From the IMG/VR virus record IMGVR_UViG_3300042502_000027, positions 1 to 27,983 of that record: DNA of 27,983 bases, one strand, 5' to 3'. Shown piece by piece: positions 1-5,324 of this stretch. Under the pieces are notes generated by a model. It made no database searches. It had not been told where the DNA came from and saw nothing but the letters and a program-made list of their open reading frames with translations. Each line of letters starts with the position of its first letter. The stretch's first letter is position 1. Made by a program: the position numbers and the translations under genes. The stretch is from a virus.

Positions 1-519
1 CGGTTGCACAATCGTCAGATGGAATTCTTTGATCCAATCGCGTGACATTCCCTGCGTGTACGCAAGCGCGTAAATCTTGAGCTGTGTCGAGTCCTCAGAC
101 ACATAGCCTTTGCCGGTCTTGAGATCAGTGACATAGACCTTGCCTGACTGCATGGAGTAACCCACGACATCGGCAGTGCCGCCCACTTGGATGTATTCAG
201 CAGACTGATACTTGACTGGGTACTCGACATTCATTTTTTCTGTTAAGCCTTCGATATTCCAAATCTCGTTCAGGTAGTCGAGTGCCATCTGACAATCGTC
301 AGCGTCCAAGATCACGCCTTCAATCTCCTCGCCAACAAATTTCATGGGATCGGTGTCGAGCTGGTAGCAAGTCTCGGCCAGCGCGTGAATGGCAGTGCCA
401 AGCTGCGCGGCTTCACCTGATGGGCGTTGCGGTACTTGAGCGCAGAGCTTGACCGAGCCAGGACACGCTATCCACCGTGAGCTTGCTGATGGTCTTAGTC
501 TGCGTTGTTTTGTTGCCAT
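1..519 (-). CDS. RecB/Cas4-like PD-(D/E)XK nuclease, DUF2800 family (partial, C-terminus missing)
   Basis: The first 173 residues are visible and the gene runs off the left edge. The N-terminus carries the DUF2800-type pattern R-P-S-A-S-S-R-W-I-A-C-P-G-S (residues 9-22). Next come GTAIHALAE (H45), GGTADVVGY (D117) and VTDLKTGKG (D132-x-K134), then STQLKIYALAY (Q146 and Y150). The H, D, D-x-K and Q-x3-Y series is the RecB/Cas4 nuclease core, so a DNA exonuclease role in recombination or replication is expected. The ATG at 519 gives the family-typical N-terminus, and the frame is open for all 173 codons to the edge. It overlaps the end of the upstream 76-residue gene by 25 bases and belongs to the left-reading group with the RuvC-like resolvase. 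The catalytic core is seen; the biological role is inferred. Confidence 0.85.
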   Translation of the reverse strand, partial: MATKQRRLRPSASSRWIACPGSVKLCAQVPQRPSGEAAQLGTAIHALAETCYQLDTDPMKFVGEEIEGVILDADDCQMALDYLNEIWNIEGLTEKMNVEYPVKYQSAEYIQVGGTADVVGYSMQSGKVYVTDLKTGKGYVSEDSTQLKIYALAYTQGMSRDWIKEFHLTIVQP

Positions 520-725
520 GTGTCTCTTTCTAAGTGATGGTCATTGATGATGATCTGATACGCCAACTGCCTTACCTCATGGCTGACAGCGTGTCCAAGG
601 TCTTCGGGGTCTAGGATGCGCTTTAAGAGCACCACCTTGTCCTGATTGGCTTTGCGTTGCGCCTCGAGCTGAGTGCCCAGCCAGATGATGTGCTCGCGCA
701 TGACTTGTCTCTCTTTATCTTGCAT
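495..725 (-). CDS. Small hypothetical protein between RuvC-like and DUF2800 genes
   Basis: This 76-residue, soluble, charged protein has no family I recognise. Its composition is helix-friendly (MREHIIWLGTQLEAQRK and a leucine/valine pattern around residues 30-55), and it ends in a polar tail. It starts 11 bases inside the end of the RuvC-like gene and ends 25 bases inside the start of the nuclease gene, which fits translational coupling in one left-reading operon. The overlaps are larger than the 1-4 bases usual here, which lowers confidence slightly. A role accessory to the nuclease or resolvase is only a guess from position. Confidence 0.6.
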   Translation of the reverse strand: MQDKERQVMREHIIWLGTQLEAQRKANQDKVVLLKRILDPEDLGHAVSHEVRQLAYQIIINDHHLERDTWQQNNAD

Positions 726-1188
726 TGCGAATCCCCCACATTGCGATCAGCGTTGCCTCGGCTCGGCCATCGTCTTTGACGCGCTTGAAGTATTCCGACA
801 TGGCGGGGAATAACTCAATGGCACGCTGTCTGGATGCGTCTTTGCCTGCGGCCTTGCCCATGGCCTTAGTCCATGTGGCTGGTGCAACATAGGTCACTGG
901 CACACTGAGTCCGGCCAGCACACCTTCAACGACACCAAGGCTGCGGCCAAAGCCAAACATGGCGGTTACGCCTTGACCTGGCCGCGCCGCTGGACGCTCC
1001 ACAATGGCTAAATCTGGCTTGAGAGACTCAATCAAATGAGCCAGCAAATTGGGTGAGACCTGTCGTTTGGTCTTTTTGTTGATGTCCACCGTCAGCGTTG
1101 GCATATCGTGTACCGATAGCAACTGGCCGTCTACCAACACCGCTATAGCGCCGTTTAAGCCGCAGTCAATTCCGATGGTTCTAATCAT
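715..1188 (-). CDS. RuvC-like Holliday junction resolvase / RNase H-fold nuclease
   Basis: This 157-residue protein has the RuvC layout. IGIDCGLNGA supplies the first acidic residue (D8), IVERP the second (E64), and the C-terminal DDGRAEATLIAMWG the last group (D139/D140 and E144). The segment AMFGFGRSLGVVEGVLAG matches the RuvC region that packs against the core. These enzymes cut four-way junctions, and in phages they resolve recombination or replication branches before packaging. Length is typical (about 150-170). The ATG at 1188 overlaps the stop of the upstream HTH gene (ATGA). It lies upstream of a RecB-like nuclease in the same operon, which fits a recombination/replication module. Confidence 0.88.
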   Translation of the reverse strand: MIRTIGIDCGLNGAIAVLVDGQLLSVHDMPTLTVDINKKTKRQVSPNLLAHLIESLKPDLAIVERPAARPGQGVTAMFGFGRSLGVVEGVLAGLSVPVTYVAPATWTKAMGKAAGKDASRQRAIELFPAMSEYFKRVKDDGRAEATLIAMWGIRNAR

Positions 1189-1439
1189 TTGACGGCCTCA
1201 TCCATGGCCTTGTTGAGCATCGTCATGCGTGCTGACACCAGCGCATCCGCTGCCTGCTCCAAGCGCACCACGGTGCTGTAAAGTGGCTCTGTGATGCCGT
1301 TCTGCCAGCGACTGATCTGAGCCTGATTGATCTCGGCCACGCGGGACAGATCGGACATCTTGAATCCGGCAGCCTCTACCTTGTGCTTGATGTCCAGAAT
1401 TGCTTGTTGTGCTATTTTCATGCGTAGAATGTTAACCAT
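1185..1439 (-). CDS. Small Cro/CI-type helix-turn-helix regulator
   Basis: This 84-residue protein has a lambda-repressor-like HTH at about residues 27-60: MSDLSRVAEIN, then the recognition helix region QAQISRWQNG, followed by TEPLYSTVVRLEQAADAL. It has no peptidase or dimerisation extension, so it resembles Cro or other single-domain regulators. It is the first gene of the left-reading group and faces the 190-base control region, so the obvious inference is that it binds there and regulates one or both divergent operons. The start is uncertain: ATG at 1439 gives this length, while ATG at 1421 gives 78 residues. Neither has a convincing Shine-Dalgarno sequence. A TTGACC/TAACAT promoter candidate at 1429-1458 would make the 1421 start nearly leaderless. 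Confidence 0.8.
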   Translation of the reverse strand: MVNILRMKIAQQAILDIKHKVEAAGFKMSDLSRVAEINQAQISRWQNGITEPLYSTVVRLEQAADALVSARMTMLNKAMDEAVK

Positions 1440-1458
1440 GTTTTGTGGAGATGGTCAA
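1429..1458 (-). promoter_or_regulatory. Candidate promoter for the HTH/RuvC/nuclease operon
   Basis: On the minus strand TTGACC (1458-1453) and TAACAT (1434-1429) are separated by 18 bases. This resembles a sigma70 promoter, with five of six matches at -35 and a moderate -10. Transcription would begin around 1421-1424, after the ATG at 1439 and at the ATG at 1421, so it fits only if the shorter, nearly leaderless start is used. It is a weak call from spacing and consensus alone. Confidence 0.3.
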
Positions 1459-1467
1459 GTTTAAGGC

Positions 1468-1498
1468 AAAAAAAGAGGGTTGACTCACGCCAACCCTC
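1468..1498 (-). terminator. Intrinsic terminator reading leftward in the control region
   Basis: GAGGGTTG (1475-1482) and CAACCCTC (1491-1498) form a perfect 8-bp stem with an 8-base loop. On the minus strand the stem is followed directly by seven T residues (A run at 1468-1474). That is the classic intrinsic terminator arrangement for leftward transcription. On the plus strand there is no T run after the stem. No minus-strand gene lies just to its right, so it would end either a short leader/small RNA or antisense transcription entering from the early operon. Confidence 0.65.
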
Positions 1499-1529
1499 AA
1501 GGCAACTGCCGGAAAGCATGACACCGGCA
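1468..1529 (-). ncRNA. Candidate small RNA: two hairpins ending in an intrinsic terminator
   Basis: Read leftward, a TACAAT -10-like box (1540-1535) is followed by hairpin 1 (CTGCCGG 1530-1524 with CCGGCAG 1512-1506, 11-base loop). Hairpin 2 follows, with a GAGGGTTG/CAACCCTC stem and seven T residues. This gives a roughly 60-nucleotide unit shaped like a bacterial small RNA. The -35 is poor (TTTAGT), and the predicted start falls within the first arm of hairpin 1. The structure is seen in the sequence; expression as an RNA is inference. Alternatives are an attenuator, or operators plus an insulating terminator. Confidence 0.35.
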
Positions 1530-1530
1530 G
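1506..1530. repeat. Perfect inverted repeat in the divergent control region
   Basis: CTGCCGG at 1506-1512 and CCGGCAG at 1524-1530 are perfect inverted copies separated by 11 bases. It could be an operator for the adjacent HTH regulator or the first stem of the candidate leftward small RNA. The arms are GC-rich in an otherwise AT-leaning spacer, so chance occurrence is less likely. Confidence 0.5.
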
Positions 1531-1573
1531 AGGGATTGTAAGGGATGGAATACCTGACTAAATCGCATGGTAT

Positions 1574-1601
1574 TTGACAGATTTGGAAATATTGATATGA
1601 T
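1574..1601 (+). promoter_or_regulatory. Sigma70-type promoter for the rightward early genes
   Basis: A perfect TTGACA (-35) at 1574-1579 is followed after 16 bases by TATGAT (-10, five of six) at 1596-1601. Transcription would start near 1608, about 22 bases before the first early gene. The spacer holds ATTTGGAAAT (1581-1590), an imperfect palindrome that could serve as an operator. This is the best promoter match noticed in the window and implies use of host RNA polymerase for the early genes. Confidence 0.7.
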
Positions 1602-1629
1602 TACTTCGTCAACAACCTGAAAGGCTTTT

Positions 1630-1770
1630 ATGAACCACACACAACACGCATTCACCGTAGAGGCGCACCGCCGCCTCTCCAAACGCGCAGAGGCAGCCTT
1701 TGACTACCTGCTGTGCCTCGCCATCGGCACTGGCTTGGCTGCACTGCTTGTCGCATGGTGGTCGGCATGA
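1630..1770 (+). CDS. Small single-pass membrane protein, first early gene
   Basis: This 46-residue protein has a charged N-terminal half (EAHRRLSKRAEAAFD) and a hydrophobic C-terminal segment at about residues 27-45 (YLLCLAIGTGLAALLVAWW), so it should span the inner membrane once. The ATG at 1630 has GAAAGG at 1619-1624 with 5-base spacing and lies about 22 bases after the predicted transcription start. Its stop overlaps the next start (ATGA). It is not recognised. As the promoter-proximal early gene it may act on the host envelope, but that is only inference. Confidence 0.65.
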   Translation: MNHTQHAFTVEAHRRLSKRAEAAFDYLLCLAIGTGLAALLVAWWSA

Positions 1771-2003
1771 ATAACCCACCAGCATTTCCAGTTCAAAGCG
1801 TTTACATAGAAGACCAAGAAACAAATTCAAGAGGCATGAGTCTGCGTGACTACTTTGCTGCCAAGGCAATGCAGATCATGTGGGACGCCTATGACAAGGG
1901 GTATTGCGGCCTGAACAACAACGACGCGCCAAACGTGGAAATCATCGCGGCTGGCTCCTACTCAATGGCAGACGCAATGCTGAAAGCGAGAGAGCAAGAA
2001 TGA
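1767..2003 (+). CDS. Conserved small phage protein with the GMSLRDYFAAKAMQ motif
   Basis: This 78-residue protein contains GMSLRDYFAAKAMQ near the middle and ends ADAMLKAREQE. The combination is familiar from many uncharacterised early or accessory phage proteins of Gram-negative hosts, and function is unknown. The ATG at 1767 is chosen because it overlaps the upstream stop as ATGA and gives the usual N-terminus before PPAFP. An in-frame extension to 1713 would run through the previous gene and is unlikely. The predicted protein is soluble and mainly helical. Confidence 0.75.
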   Translation: MNNPPAFPVQSVYIEDQETNSRGMSLRDYFAAKAMQIMWDAYDKGYCGLNNNDAPNVEIIAAGSYSMADAMLKAREQE

Positions 2004-2023
2004 ATAACCCAAAGGAGAAAACC

Positions 2024-2293
2024 ATGTCACAGACAATGCAAATGGAAATTGACCGCGCTGTCAATAAGTTCACGCCACCCATGGAAGTGGGCGGTGGATT
2101 TCTCACCCGCGATGAATACGCCAAGTTTGCGCGTATGGCAGTCACCGAGGGCACATTGATCGGATGGGCGCACGCGGAGAACATGACACGCGAAAGAATG
2201 CAACGCAAGATCACCGAGCTGGAGCATGAGGTCAGCATACTGCGTGACCGCGTGAAAGATGTCGAGATGGAATTGCTGGCGACTCAAAAATGA
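2024..2293 (+). CDS. Hypothetical early protein with C-terminal coiled coil
   Basis: This 89-residue protein is not a family I can name. The middle (GGGFLTRDEYAKFARMAVTEG) looks globular. The last 35 residues (RKITELEHEVSILRDRV and on) have a leucine/valine heptad pattern typical of a coiled coil, suggesting dimerisation. The ATG at 2024 is preferred because AAAGGAG sits at 2011-2017 at good spacing. An alternative in-frame ATG at 2000, overlapping the previous stop, would add eight residues. The stop overlaps the next start (ATGA at 2290). Confidence 0.7.
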   Translation: MSQTMQMEIDRAVNKFTPPMEVGGGFLTRDEYAKFARMAVTEGTLIGWAHAENMTRERMQRKITELEHEVSILRDRVKDVEMELLATQK

Positions 2294-2496
2294 GAAAGCT
2301 CAACTGGACACCCCCACACGGCACAAAGATCACATGGCCAACCATTCATGTGTTTGATGCCGCATTCACACCAACCAGAGGCGCTGATGTGCAGGCAATT
2401 TGGCGCAGATACGGTTGGACACCACGCTTTGGCAACGCGCCAGCGGTTGACGAACCCATCCACAAATCCAAGGTGCTGCGCGTATGGAAACCATAA
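2290..2496 (+). CDS. Small hypothetical early protein
   Basis: This 68-residue basic protein is rich in Trp, Pro and Arg (WTPPHGTKITWPTIHVF, AIWRRYGWTPRFGNAP) and ends KVLRVWKP. No transmembrane segment or known motif is evident. The repeated W-T-P and the basic charge could suit nucleic-acid or protein binding, but nothing is diagnostic. It is coupled to both neighbours: its start overlaps the upstream stop by 4 bases, and its last 13 bases contain the start of the next gene. Confidence 0.65.
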   Translation: MRKLNWTPPHGTKITWPTIHVFDAAFTPTRGADVQAIWRRYGWTPRFGNAPAVDEPIHKSKVLRVWKP

Positions 2497-2594
2497 TTAA
2501 CTTTTTGCTTGTGGCGGTGCTCTCCATCACAATCACGCTACTGGTGATCTTTTGCGTCATCAAATTTCTGCTGGACCAGACCGAGGACAAATAG
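2484..2594 (+). CDS. Very small membrane protein
   Basis: This 36-residue protein consists almost entirely of one hydrophobic helix (about residues 4-30, INFLLVAVLSITITLLVIF and on), flanked by a short polar start and an acidic tail (DQTEDK). The ATG at 2484 lies inside the end of the preceding gene, and the stop at 2592-2594 directly abuts the next ATG. The tight packing supports a real gene. It is probably an inner-membrane peptide of the early operon, with unknown function. Confidence 0.55.
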   Translation: METIINFLLVAVLSITITLLVIFCVIKFLLDQTEDK

Positions 2595-2747
2595 ATGGCA
2601 CGCCCAAAGACAGAGTTGACCACCAACCCCAAAATCATAGGGGCGCGGTTGACGCAGGAGCAATTCAAAGAATGGCGCAAACTGGGTGGCGGCCTGTGGC
2701 TGCGAAAGTATTTGATTGAGAGTGCTGAGAAAAGGAAAAAGCAATGA
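2595..2747 (+). CDS. Small basic protein, possible ribbon-helix-helix DNA-binding type
   Basis: This 50-residue protein reads ARPKTELTTNPKIIGARLTQEQFKEW and so on, then GGGLWLRKYLIESAEKRKK. The order is a basic N-terminus, a short beta-like stretch (KIIGARLT), then two helices, the second beginning near a G-x-W-L-R segment. This resembles the CopG/Arc ribbon-helix-helix pattern of small repressors, though the match is by shape and not by a decisive motif. The start follows the upstream stop without a gap, and the stop overlaps the next ATG (ATGA). It may be an early transcription regulator. Confidence 0.6.
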   Translation: MARPKTELTTNPKIIGARLTQEQFKEWRKLGGGLWLRKYLIESAEKRKKQ

Positions 2748-3031
2748 AATCACTTAGCAAACTACATCAAGAGGCAATCACCCAAGCCCAAAACGAAACC
2801 GATCAAAACAAAGCAGCGGCGATGGCGATGATTGAGAAGCCAATTGAGATGATTAAGGCCATCATGCTCAAGCATGAATTGGCGGTCATCGAGGTGATGC
2901 GTGAGTTGCATGAGTCCCGTGAAGCGGCAGTCAGGGCAGAGCGTGAAGCCTGTGCAAAGTTGTGTGAGGATGGAATTGTTAAAGGCGGTGAAGTGTTTGC
3001 GGCAAAAATCAGAGCAAGGGGAAACACATGA
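2744..3031 (+). CDS. Hypothetical helical early protein (AEREACAKLCE motif)
   Basis: This 95-residue, almost fully helical protein has a long amphipathic region and a C-terminal motif AVRAEREACAKLCEDG, then AAKIRARG. That motif recurs at the ends of many short phage proteins of unknown function, often downstream of varied N-terminal parts. It has no membrane segment. The ATG at 2744 overlaps the previous stop and AAAAGGAAAAAG lies just upstream. The end overlaps the next gene by 4 bases. Confidence 0.7.
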   Translation: MKSLSKLHQEAITQAQNETDQNKAAAMAMIEKPIEMIKAIMLKHELAVIEVMRELHESREAAVRAEREACAKLCEDGIVKGGEVFAAKIRARGNT

Positions 3032-3285
3032 GCAAAGACACAAGATGGGACAGAAGCATAGAGACTTTCTCAGATGAGCAACTTTTATTTGAGTTGGTCA
3101 GACGCAATGGTTTTCAACGAGCCGCTAAGAAGACAGAGTATTGGGGAAAGGGATGGGTCACAAGTGTTGTCGGCATTGGCAAAGACCACAGCGTATCCAT
3201 CACTATGGACAGAGATGACTTCAAAGAGTTGTCTGTGTTGGCGGTTGTTGGGTTTCAAGACAAACTCAAGGAGAAGAACACATGA
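3028..3285 (+). CDS. Small hypothetical early protein
   Basis: This 85-residue soluble protein is not recognised. It shows an acidic N-terminal helix (TFSDEQLLFELVRRNGF), a basic middle with KKTEYWGKGW, a beta-like stretch (TSVVGIGKDHSVSITMDRD) and a short C-terminal helix. It begins with an ATGA overlap and ends with a 4-base overlap with the next gene. A frame running alongside it (3074-3322) is discarded because it lacks the coupled start. Confidence 0.65.
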   Translation: MSKDTRWDRSIETFSDEQLLFELVRRNGFQRAAKKTEYWGKGWVTSVVGIGKDHSVSITMDRDDFKELSVLAVVGFQDKLKEKNT

Positions 3286-3443
3286 AATACGAAGACATAA
3301 AAGACTTCTATCAACGCTGTGAAGAACACCCTGACCATCAAAACGGCATCATATGCAACTCAATGATTCAACAGCGGTTGCATGAAGAAATTGACGAACT
3401 GCGTGAGTTCATTGAACAGCAACTCAAGGAACGCAATACTTGA
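3282..3443 (+). CDS. Small acidic helical hypothetical protein
   Basis: This 53-residue protein has an N-terminal part KYEDIKDFYQRCEEHPDHQNG and a C-terminal amphipathic helix (LHEEIDELREFIEQQL). Its heptad pattern suggests oligomerisation. The ATG at 3282 follows a GGAGAAG Shine-Dalgarno (3270-3276) and overlaps the previous stop as ATGA. The stop at 3441-3443 overlaps the TTG start of the next gene. No function can be assigned. Confidence 0.65.
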   Translation: MKYEDIKDFYQRCEEHPDHQNGIICNSMIQQRLHEEIDELREFIEQQLKERNT

Positions 3444-3808
3444 AATCCGCAAGACTGCCCAAGGTAATTGACTTACTCCAGCGCACAGCCTGCACAGCGC
3501 CAGAGCTGGCGGCCAAGGTGTACTGCACCGAGAGGTCAGCGCAGCAGATGATCAACCGTCTGCGACTCGCTGGCACTGTCCACATACAAGAGTGGCGCAG
3601 ATCGGGCAGAGTGCTGGTGGCGGTGTACCGCTATGGCATCGGCACTGATGCCGTCAAACCTCCACCACTGACACCCATGGAGAGGTTGCGTAGATTCAGA
3701 GAGCGCGAGACATTGGACGATAAGGCTTTCCGCTTGGCAAGGGAAAGAGGCAAGAGGTTAAAGCCACGGCGTGATCCGCTGGTGGCTGCACTGTTTGGAG
3801 ATAAGTGA
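3440..3808 (+). CDS. Winged-helix-like putative DNA-binding protein (TTG start)
   Basis: This 122-residue basic protein has residues 5-65 forming a likely winged helix. IDLLQRTACTAPELAAKVYC provides the first helices, TERSAQQMINRLRLAG the recognition helix, and VHIQEWRRSGRVLVAVYRYG a beta wing. The C-terminal half is Arg-rich (MERLRRFRERETLDDKAF and on) and may contact DNA non-specifically. The start is TTG at 3440, overlapping the previous stop as TTGA with AAGGA upstream; no ATG precedes the domain. It is a candidate early-to-late transcription regulator by position near the end of the early operon, though target and role are unproven. Confidence 0.75.
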   Translation: MKSARLPKVIDLLQRTACTAPELAAKVYCTERSAQQMINRLRLAGTVHIQEWRRSGRVLVAVYRYGIGTDAVKPPPLTPMERLRRFRERETLDDKAFRLARERGKRLKPRRDPLVAALFGDK

Positions 3809-3948
3809 TGATTGACAAAGAAAAACTCAAAGCATTTTTGATTGAAATGCTTGATGAGGCAAATGAAGTACAAGTCGCATCCGGTGAAACACCGTCAGCG
3901 CAGGAGGCCATAAATCAAATTATTGATTGGCTTGATGAAGATCAATAA
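3808..3948 (+). CDS. Last early gene, very small acidic protein
   Basis: This 46-residue acidic protein (IDKEKLKAFLIEMLDEANEV, then AINQIIDWLDEDQ) forms two probable amphipathic helices. The ATG at 3808 shares its A with the previous stop (TGATG). The stop at 3946-3948 lies inside the end of the opposing late gene, so the two operons overlap tail to tail by 7 bases. The function is not recognised. Coupling and a consistent helical pattern support a real gene. Confidence 0.6.
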   Translation: MIDKEKLKAFLIEMLDEANEVQVASGETPSAQEAINQIIDWLDEDQ

Positions 3949-3960
3949 TCTTCTTTTTTC
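3919..3960 (+). terminator. Terminator-like hairpin at the collision of early and late operons
   Basis: ATTATTGAT (3919-3927) and ATCAATAAT (3941-3949) form a perfect 9-bp stem around a 13-base loop. Rightward it is followed by CTTCTTTTTTC, a U-rich tract ending early transcripts. Leftward it is followed by TTGATTTAT, which is weaker. The stem contains the stop codons of both converging genes. It is AT-rich, so efficiency is uncertain, but location and T-tract support a shared terminator. Confidence 0.5.
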
Positions 3961-5324
3961 AGGATGCCGCCTTTGGTAATGCCACCGGCATAAGCCTGTC
4001 CTCTGATAATTAAGTCTCTGGCGCTTTCTGGAGAGATACCCAATCTGGTTGCTGTCTCACCAATTTGTTGCGCCAGCAACTCTAGCTTTGGCGCACCAAT
4101 AGGTGAAGTCACTCCGGTTGCGCCTGATCCAGCGCCCCAAATAACAGCTTGTGCAGGCACTGCCTCAAGCTCCATAGGTTGCGCCACTTTCTGATTGAAC
4201 CACGGTCCAAGCGCAACCATCTCAGGCACTGACGCGCTGGCCTTTGGTATTGTTTGAACGCCCTTAGAGGTTGTTGCGCCACGCACATCAGGCAAACCTA
4301 CCAATCGTGACCAGTGTGCGTCTCCAACCGGCCATTGCGTTTGAAAGCCTGTCTCTGGCACACCAGACGCATGGATATAGCTTGGCACTTTGGCAGAGTC
4401 CATGTCCAGCAATCCACCGGCTAAATACTTGCCCATTGGACCGGCCTGCGCGGTGCTGTGATATGGATGGCCGATAACGCCAGCCAGTTCTGGAGGAAAA
4501 TTCTTTCCTCGTTTCTTTTCAGAAATACCGCCAAAAGTTCGGAAGTCTTCAAATCTTCCCATGGTGTCCATCATGTTGGCGGCAGTACCACGGTTTAATT
4601 CGGTGAGCACCTCGCTGCCAGGACTTGACATCCCTGTCAGTGCATTGAATTTGTTGTACTCGCCAATAGCTTTGTCAGCGCCATATATATCAACAAATCG
4701 CTGATATAGCGGGTCCATGGTGTACCAAGATGCCATGCCTTTGTACAGTTCTGGCTGCTGCTTTGCCTCGGCCACAATGTCTTGCAAACGCTGCACATTG
4801 CGCGGATTCATAACCTGTGGCGCGTGCTTTGCACCTTTAGGATTGGCGGCAGTTCTAAACGGTACATCAGTGATATTGCCAGCGCGAGTGCCTTGCTGAG
4901 AGATGTCAAATAAGTCCTGTCTGGTCACGCCAAACAATTGTTTCATCAGAGGGTTTTCTGTAGCCACACGGCTTGTTGCCTCTTGCACCAATTCACGCGG
5001 GTTTTTATAGATATCAGGAAAAGCAATGCGTGATGGATTCATCACGGTAGCAATCTTCTTAGTGATGCCAGCAGGCGCAAACGACATTGGACCAGACATT
5101 GTCATGTTGACAAGTTCATCGAAAGCCGCCTGATCAGTGACCTTGATGGGATTCTTTTTATCTGCAAATGCGCGAGCATTTAATTCTCTAAATTTGTCTC
5201 TGGATTGCTCCATATTCGACACGCCAGATTGCAATAAGCCGCCAATGCCTTGCAAAGCCTGCGTCCTGTTTGGGTCTTGCAGATAACCCAAAATATCGCC
5301 AAGTAATCCAGTTTCTTTTGCCAT
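3942..5324 (-). CDS. Last late gene: ejection-module protein with enzyme-like conserved core
   Basis: This 460-residue protein starts with a virion-protein-like region (LLGDILGYLQDPNRTQALQGIGGLLQSG) and ends with a hydrophobic/helical tail. Residues about 195-410 hold dense motifs: KGMASWYTMDPLYQRF, GMSSPGSEVLTELNRGT, GHPYHSTAQAGPMGKYL, WPVGDAHWSRLVGLPDVRG and PAQAVIWGAG. Such invariant-looking His, Ser, Glu, Arg and Trp motifs suggest an enzyme, not a plain structural protein. I have a memory of similar phage sequences of unknown function and cannot name the reaction. It follows four other internal-virion proteins in the operon, so delivery with the DNA is a reasonable inference. It ends in a 7-base overlap with the last early gene. 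Confidence 0.75.
   Translation of the reverse strand: MAKETGLLGDILGYLQDPNRTQALQGIGGLLQSGVSNMEQSRDKFRELNARAFADKKNPIKVTDQAAFDELVNMTMSGPMSFAPAGITKKIATVMNPSRIAFPDIYKNPRELVQEATSRVATENPLMKQLFGVTRQDLFDISQQGTRAGNITDVPFRTAANPKGAKHAPQVMNPRNVQRLQDIVAEAKQQPELYKGMASWYTMDPLYQRFVDIYGADKAIGEYNKFNALTGMSSPGSEVLTELNRGTAANMMDTMGRFEDFRTFGGISEKKRGKNFPPELAGVIGHPYHSTAQAGPMGKYLAGGLLDMDSAKVPSYIHASGVPETGFQTQWPVGDAHWSRLVGLPDVRGATTSKGVQTIPKASASVPEMVALGPWFNQKVAQPMELEAVPAQAVIWGAGSGATGVTSPIGAPKLELLAQQIGETATRLGISPESARDLIIRGQAYAGGITKGGILKKEDY

Follow-up and report, generated by a model that had tools for sequence, protein, structure and literature searches.

A freshwater phage very probably encodes a small RNA of about 60 bases beside a repressor-like gene. 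The window examined herein is the whole stretch of 27,983 nucleotides (IMG/VR record IMGVR_UViG_3300042502_000027), and the unit resides on its minus strand, near the left end. The two hairpins, the T-run, and the TACAAT box that a sequence-only reading had described are present exactly where that reading had placed them. Stem 1 is formed by CTGCCGG and CCGGCAG (1530-1524 and 1512-1506), and stem 2 by GAGGGTTG and CAACCCTC (1498-1491 and 1482-1475), with the latter stem proving to be 10 base pairs long and capped by a GUGA tetraloop. Seven T residues (1474-1468) lie directly 3′ of stem 2 and complete an intrinsic terminator (1468-1498) that is stronger than any other leftward terminator in the first 5 kb and is the only strong one found within positions 1-5000. 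Hairpin 1 (1506-1530) has 7 base pairs as DNA and 5 or 6 in the predicted transcript, wherein it closes the 5′ end of the RNA. The hairpins are joined by the linker GTTGCC (1501-1506), whose first G forms the closing pair of hairpin 1 at the DNA level and whose other bases are unpaired in the fold. Based on comparisons with related sequences, we consider it highly likely that this unit represents a real, separately terminated small RNA.

Inverted repeats of at least 7 nucleotides are common in this stretch (six pairs per 801 nucleotides), and therefore the stems by themselves prove little. For the 106-nucleotide minus-strand segment, the predicted fold is better than those of 200 of 200 shuffled sequences (z = -3.5), and the value for the predicted 61-nucleotide RNA is z = -4.5, compared to a weaker fold on the opposite strand (z = -1.95). 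The predicted RNA adopts one dominant fold, and no competing structure was seen. The strong case against chance repeats comes from the comparative evidence. Relatives were sought in viral loci drawn with the neighboring helix-turn-helix (HTH) protein (40, 80, and 80 loci, with more than 200 stretches encoding a relative) and, independently, with a DNA pattern composed of hairpin 1 and the linker (49 loci). A total of 102 distinct units were collected in viral contigs, and these roughly 100 distinct relatives mark the unit as a genuine RNA gene and not as inverted repeats that arose by chance.

The conserved secondary structure that characterizes a small-RNA gene is evident among these relatives. 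An alignment of 18 distinct close relatives shows pairing in 95% of cells, and both stems carry compensatory changes (6 of 17 pairs are two-sided, with 33 double-change cells, a level reached by 0 of 500 shuffles). Hairpin 1 alone is 100% paired in its 18 distinct sequences, and the pairing signal collapses in every slid control. Thus, the stems are conserved; their loss beside conserved flanks was the outcome that the sequence-only reading had named as evidence against its proposal. When the close-relative alignment is read as minus-strand RNA, its wobbles are G-U, which points to a leftward transcript. Across all groups, a sequence-only MAFFT alignment misaligned hairpin 1, and therefore counts anchored on the linker were used instead. 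The pair designated p4 is G-C in 30, U-A in 26, and C-G in 19 distinct cores. One anchored count, that of mismatches at the outer pairs of hairpin 1, demands pairing from p2 upward, and only the contrast at p0 and p1 is informative there. An unforced control is provided by swapping arms: in a strict five-pair test, 73 of 98 units show pairing with the 3′ arm that belongs to them, compared to a mean of 12.9 and a maximum of 23 for swapped arms. The 25 units that fail this test match the count of group B units, in which the stem has one pair fewer.

The terminator hairpins are replaced wholesale among relatives, with UUCG, GUGA, or GCGA loops on quite different stems, while the units examined retain an 8-11-base-pair stem followed by at least five T residues. 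One type of hairpin 1 co-occurs with several terminator types, such that the two modules combine freely.

The TACAAT box (1535-1540, minus strand) probably serves as the -10 element of the small-RNA promoter, as judged from its conservation and spacing. In relatives this box reads TAAACT, TAGAAT, CATAAT, or GATAAT, and it is separated from hairpin 1 by 4 or 5 nucleotides in 73 of 73 group A units. Group B units carry an extra 5′ hairpin, and their box (TAGAAT, CATAAT, or GATAAT) precedes that hairpin. From the spacing to the -10 box and the pairing pattern, we infer that transcription begins at G1528, 7 nucleotides past the box, which would yield an RNA of about 61 nucleotides (1468-1528, minus strand) ending with the T-run. 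The two outermost pairs of hairpin 1 contain mismatches in 6 and 10 of 31 distinct group A hairpins and in 0 of 6 distinct group B hairpins. This contrast could mean that mismatches are tolerated where the bases fall at or before the start site (group A) and barred where they are transcribed (group B), but it is no more than suggestive, given that pairing at the inner positions is forced by the count. Covarying stems, a -10 box whose spacing is fixed, and a terminator that about 100 distinct relatives retain lend good support to the small-RNA proposal of the sequence-only reading.

Farther upstream is a block, GTCAGGTATT (consensus GTCRRSTATT; 1549-1558, minus strand), which is conserved in almost every distinct unit and begins 17 or 18 nucleotides before the -10 box. 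It lies near the expected place of a -35 element, a canonical version of which is absent, and it is possibly an operator or activator site. A divergent early promoter, TTGACA-16-TATGAT (1574-1601, plus strand), matches 11 of 12 consensus positions, and relatives with other first genes have a comparable sequence. A TCATCAACAAC-like block opens the rightward early transcript (about 1603-1620 of the window) and is also present in the early leaders of relatives. In many relatives, a block of the same kind recurs on the opposite strand ahead of the small-RNA promoter. One possibility is that these blocks are operators of the HTH protein.

In every relative showing both elements, the unit immediately precedes the same small HTH gene, and among close relatives a constant 79-83 nucleotides separate the linker's end from the matched HTH start. 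The early genes on the other flank vary from phage to phage, which indicates that the unit travels with the HTH gene. A covariance model yielded one match per record in the 13 records searched (E of about 1e-16 to 1e-26). No tyrosine integrase was found in these 13 records, some of which are fragments, and thus nothing in them shows the phages to be temperate. The diverged L187-L224 group (e.g., L190 and L224) carries an added 5′ hairpin, GAGGCG...CGCCTC or GGGCG...CGCCC, near the predicted start and upstream of the HTH gene. Searches of phage and plasmid collections produced no close relative of the unit, and no such RNA was apparent by eye upstream of the nearest HTH gene in a deposited phage (MW202879; 37.5% protein identity).

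We slightly favor the hypothesis that the RNA is a base-pairing regulator acting in trans. The largely unpaired constant sequence is the GTTGCC linker, which 98 of 102 distinct units share without change, whereas the loops and the stems of the terminators vary or are exchanged. Loop 1 is variable yet pyrimidine-rich in most groups (CAUGCUUUCC, UCUCC). This arrangement is that of an RNA acting in trans through an accessible contact site, or of one that binds protein. We propose that a stand-alone gene, with its own start at about 1528 and its stop at the intrinsic terminator ending at 1468, would produce a compact RNA that is closed at the 5′ end by hairpin 1 and at the 3′ end by the tetraloop terminator, leaving only loop 1 and the linker AGTTGCCTT unpaired. 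The invariant GUUGCC would then be the core contact, while further contacts to purine-rich ribosome-binding sites could come from the pyrimidine-rich loop (CUUUCC, UCUCC). The target would probably be a conserved host RNA, or else a phage RNA missed by our scans. We lean modestly toward this explanation as a whole.

An invariant short single-stranded motif between stems conserved only as structure would fit protein binding equally well. One alternative, therefore, is that the linker and hairpins serve as a decoy or ligand for a host or phage protein, such as Hfq, a ProQ-like protein, or RNA polymerase, and the tail of five to seven T residues also accords with such a role. However, no known protein-binding motif was recognized and no similarity to Rfam families was found, and we regard this alternative as unlikely.

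Searches for phage targets of a base-pairing RNA bear on the choice between phage and host. The linker complement AAAGGCAAC, besides its occurrence in the RNA itself, recurs in about half of 18 records. As an RNA element it was rejected, in that the sites in the five records read in context are codons of the primase motif HGKGNGDKNPS and are not kept in all relatives. A scan of gene starts by protein family, with starts taken from a simple ORF caller, revealed a candidate in the primase ribosome-binding site GAGGCAATATGC. This candidate was also set aside, as the leader is replaced in many relatives and the complementary site is present in only part of them. At the start of an AAA/Toprim primase-like gene (e.g., L173:8103, minus strand), nearly all of 42 distinct contexts share the first 20 nucleotides, ATGCAAGCAGAACAAATAGC, letter for letter, and this identity extends to third codon positions though the upstream leaders differ. 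Overall, the AAAGGCAAC, leader, and gene-start scans revealed no site of extended complementarity to phage mRNA that is kept across relatives. Because these scans yielded no conserved phage site, a host target is our preferred guess. A search of genome contigs for the host with the HTH and portal proteins gave no match.

Among phage targets, the first divergent early gene deserves separate consideration, given that the sequence-only reading had suggested pairing with the early leader. The RNA might block translation of this gene via its loop, acting as an anti-Shine-Dalgarno sequence, together with the linker. In two related records (L177 and L182), loop 1 is perfectly complementary over 10 nucleotides to GGAAAGCAAA, the Shine-Dalgarno region of the first rightward gene. 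A longest-match test between loops and leaders gave p = 0.015, a weak result that is uncorrected for relatedness and derives largely from two related records. However, the interaction energies of matched RNA-leader pairs do not differ significantly from those of permuted pairs (p = 0.083 and 0.136). Moreover, among 87 early leaders, the linker complement GGCAAC occurs in none within 32 nucleotides before the ribosome-binding site, and the partial match GCAAC occurs in only 35. The leaders thus offer no support for the suggested pairing, and we judge a block of the first early gene to be quite improbable.

The terminator could also be the sole function of the unit, with the hairpins keeping leftward read-through from the late operon, or stray antisense transcripts, from running into the HTH promoter. 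The sequence-only reading had found no minus-strand gene to the right that would need a terminator, but this was mistaken: the structural (late) operon (27961 to 3942) runs leftward toward the unit, with about 2.3 kb of rightward early genes intervening. The unit is the sole strong leftward terminator found in positions 1-5000, and one relative (L131) is missing both the small-RNA promoter and hairpin 1 yet retains the terminator, about 215 nucleotides upstream of the HTH start. This may be a natural deletion, in which case the RNA may be dispensable, or the contig may be an assembly chimera. At the convergence of the early and late operons (about 3935-3957) lies a weak rightward terminator, GAAGAT-CAATA-ATCTTC-TTTTTT, for which no leftward counterpart was seen. 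A purely insulating function would leave unexplained the -10 box at fixed spacing, the covarying hairpin 1, and the invariant linker, and we consider it very improbable.

The adjacent gene (1185-1421, minus strand) encodes an HTH regulator of 78 amino acids of the Cro/CI type (PF01381), as supported by a Pfam HTH_3 match above cut-off, a weak match to a PHROG repressor family, and alignment; a profile search of the PDB with this protein gave no match. The gene has its own predicted promoter, TTGACC-18-TAACAT (1429-1458, minus strand), which begins 9 nucleotides past the T-run and is strongly conserved in relatives. Its ATG, at 1421, lies at about +2, one base after the predicted start, and thus the message would be near-leaderless, as is the lambda cI message. 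The spacing between promoter and ATG looks alike in the relatives read. With its own promoter past the T-run and a near-leaderless start, the HTH message need not rely on read-through, which makes an attenuator unlikely. The HTH protein probably controls the shared intergenic region.

An attenuator or leader of the HTH gene, as raised in the sequence-only reading, in which hairpin 1 and the terminator would switch states and set read-through into the regulator, is therefore a very remote prospect: the unit does lie on the HTH strand, directly upstream at a constant 79-83 nucleotides, but no Shine-Dalgarno sequence is visible for a longer HTH transcript, the fold contains no competing structure, and the free mixing of several hairpin-1 types with several terminator types shows that no shared alternative pairing is maintained.

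The stand-alone small RNA that we favor can be compared with several known phage RNAs. The OOP RNA of lambda is made in the leftward direction and ends at an intrinsic terminator. This short RNA is expressed from a promoter of its own within the phage control region and is antisense to cII (PMC12197685). Our unit resembles OOP in being short, located in a control region, and leftward with an intrinsic terminator, with its promoter and transcript being predicted, but it overlaps no predicted gene on the other strand. The sar RNA of P22 and the c4 RNA of P1 and P7 are short phage antisense RNAs controlling an antirepressor, and c4 has been described as pairing through loops with the region around a ribosome-binding site (PMC12197685). 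The unit would likewise be a short phage-encoded RNA with a probable regulatory role in gene control. In contrast to sar and c4, whose target mRNA is defined by complementarity, the unit has no complementary phage target that we could find, and it lies between divergent promoters where it overlaps neither predicted adjacent transcript. Because complementarity is lacking, we do not assign it to the antisense group that includes c4, sar, and OOP. VpdS, PreS, and AgvB are phage or prophage RNAs that act in trans on host or phage RNAs (PMC12197685). Action away from the locus of origin is also the mode proposed for our unit, for which no Rfam relationship was found.

Searches of Rfam 15 at gathering and relaxed thresholds returned only chance-level matches (best E of 0.1 or worse; 17-19 bits compared to cut-offs of 36-70), and no description of this phage RNA was found in the literature. 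Phage small RNAs are a known kind (PMC12197685), and by structure and sequence the unit appears to be a new family of that kind. A more tentative proposal is that it represents an undescribed, lineage-wide small-RNA family, tied in this group of phages to one HTH regulator. The invariant GUUGCC motif of such a family would act on a conserved RNA or RNA-binding protein of the host, whereas loops and terminators would be free to drift or to be exchanged.

The control regions of phages are usually interpreted as switches made of proteins, and here a structured RNA persists in one. This RNA has been retained for so long that many compensatory changes have built up in it, across phages in which the neighboring early genes have been replaced. 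It offers for testing a ready alignment, a precise prediction of the transcript, and an invariant motif of six bases.
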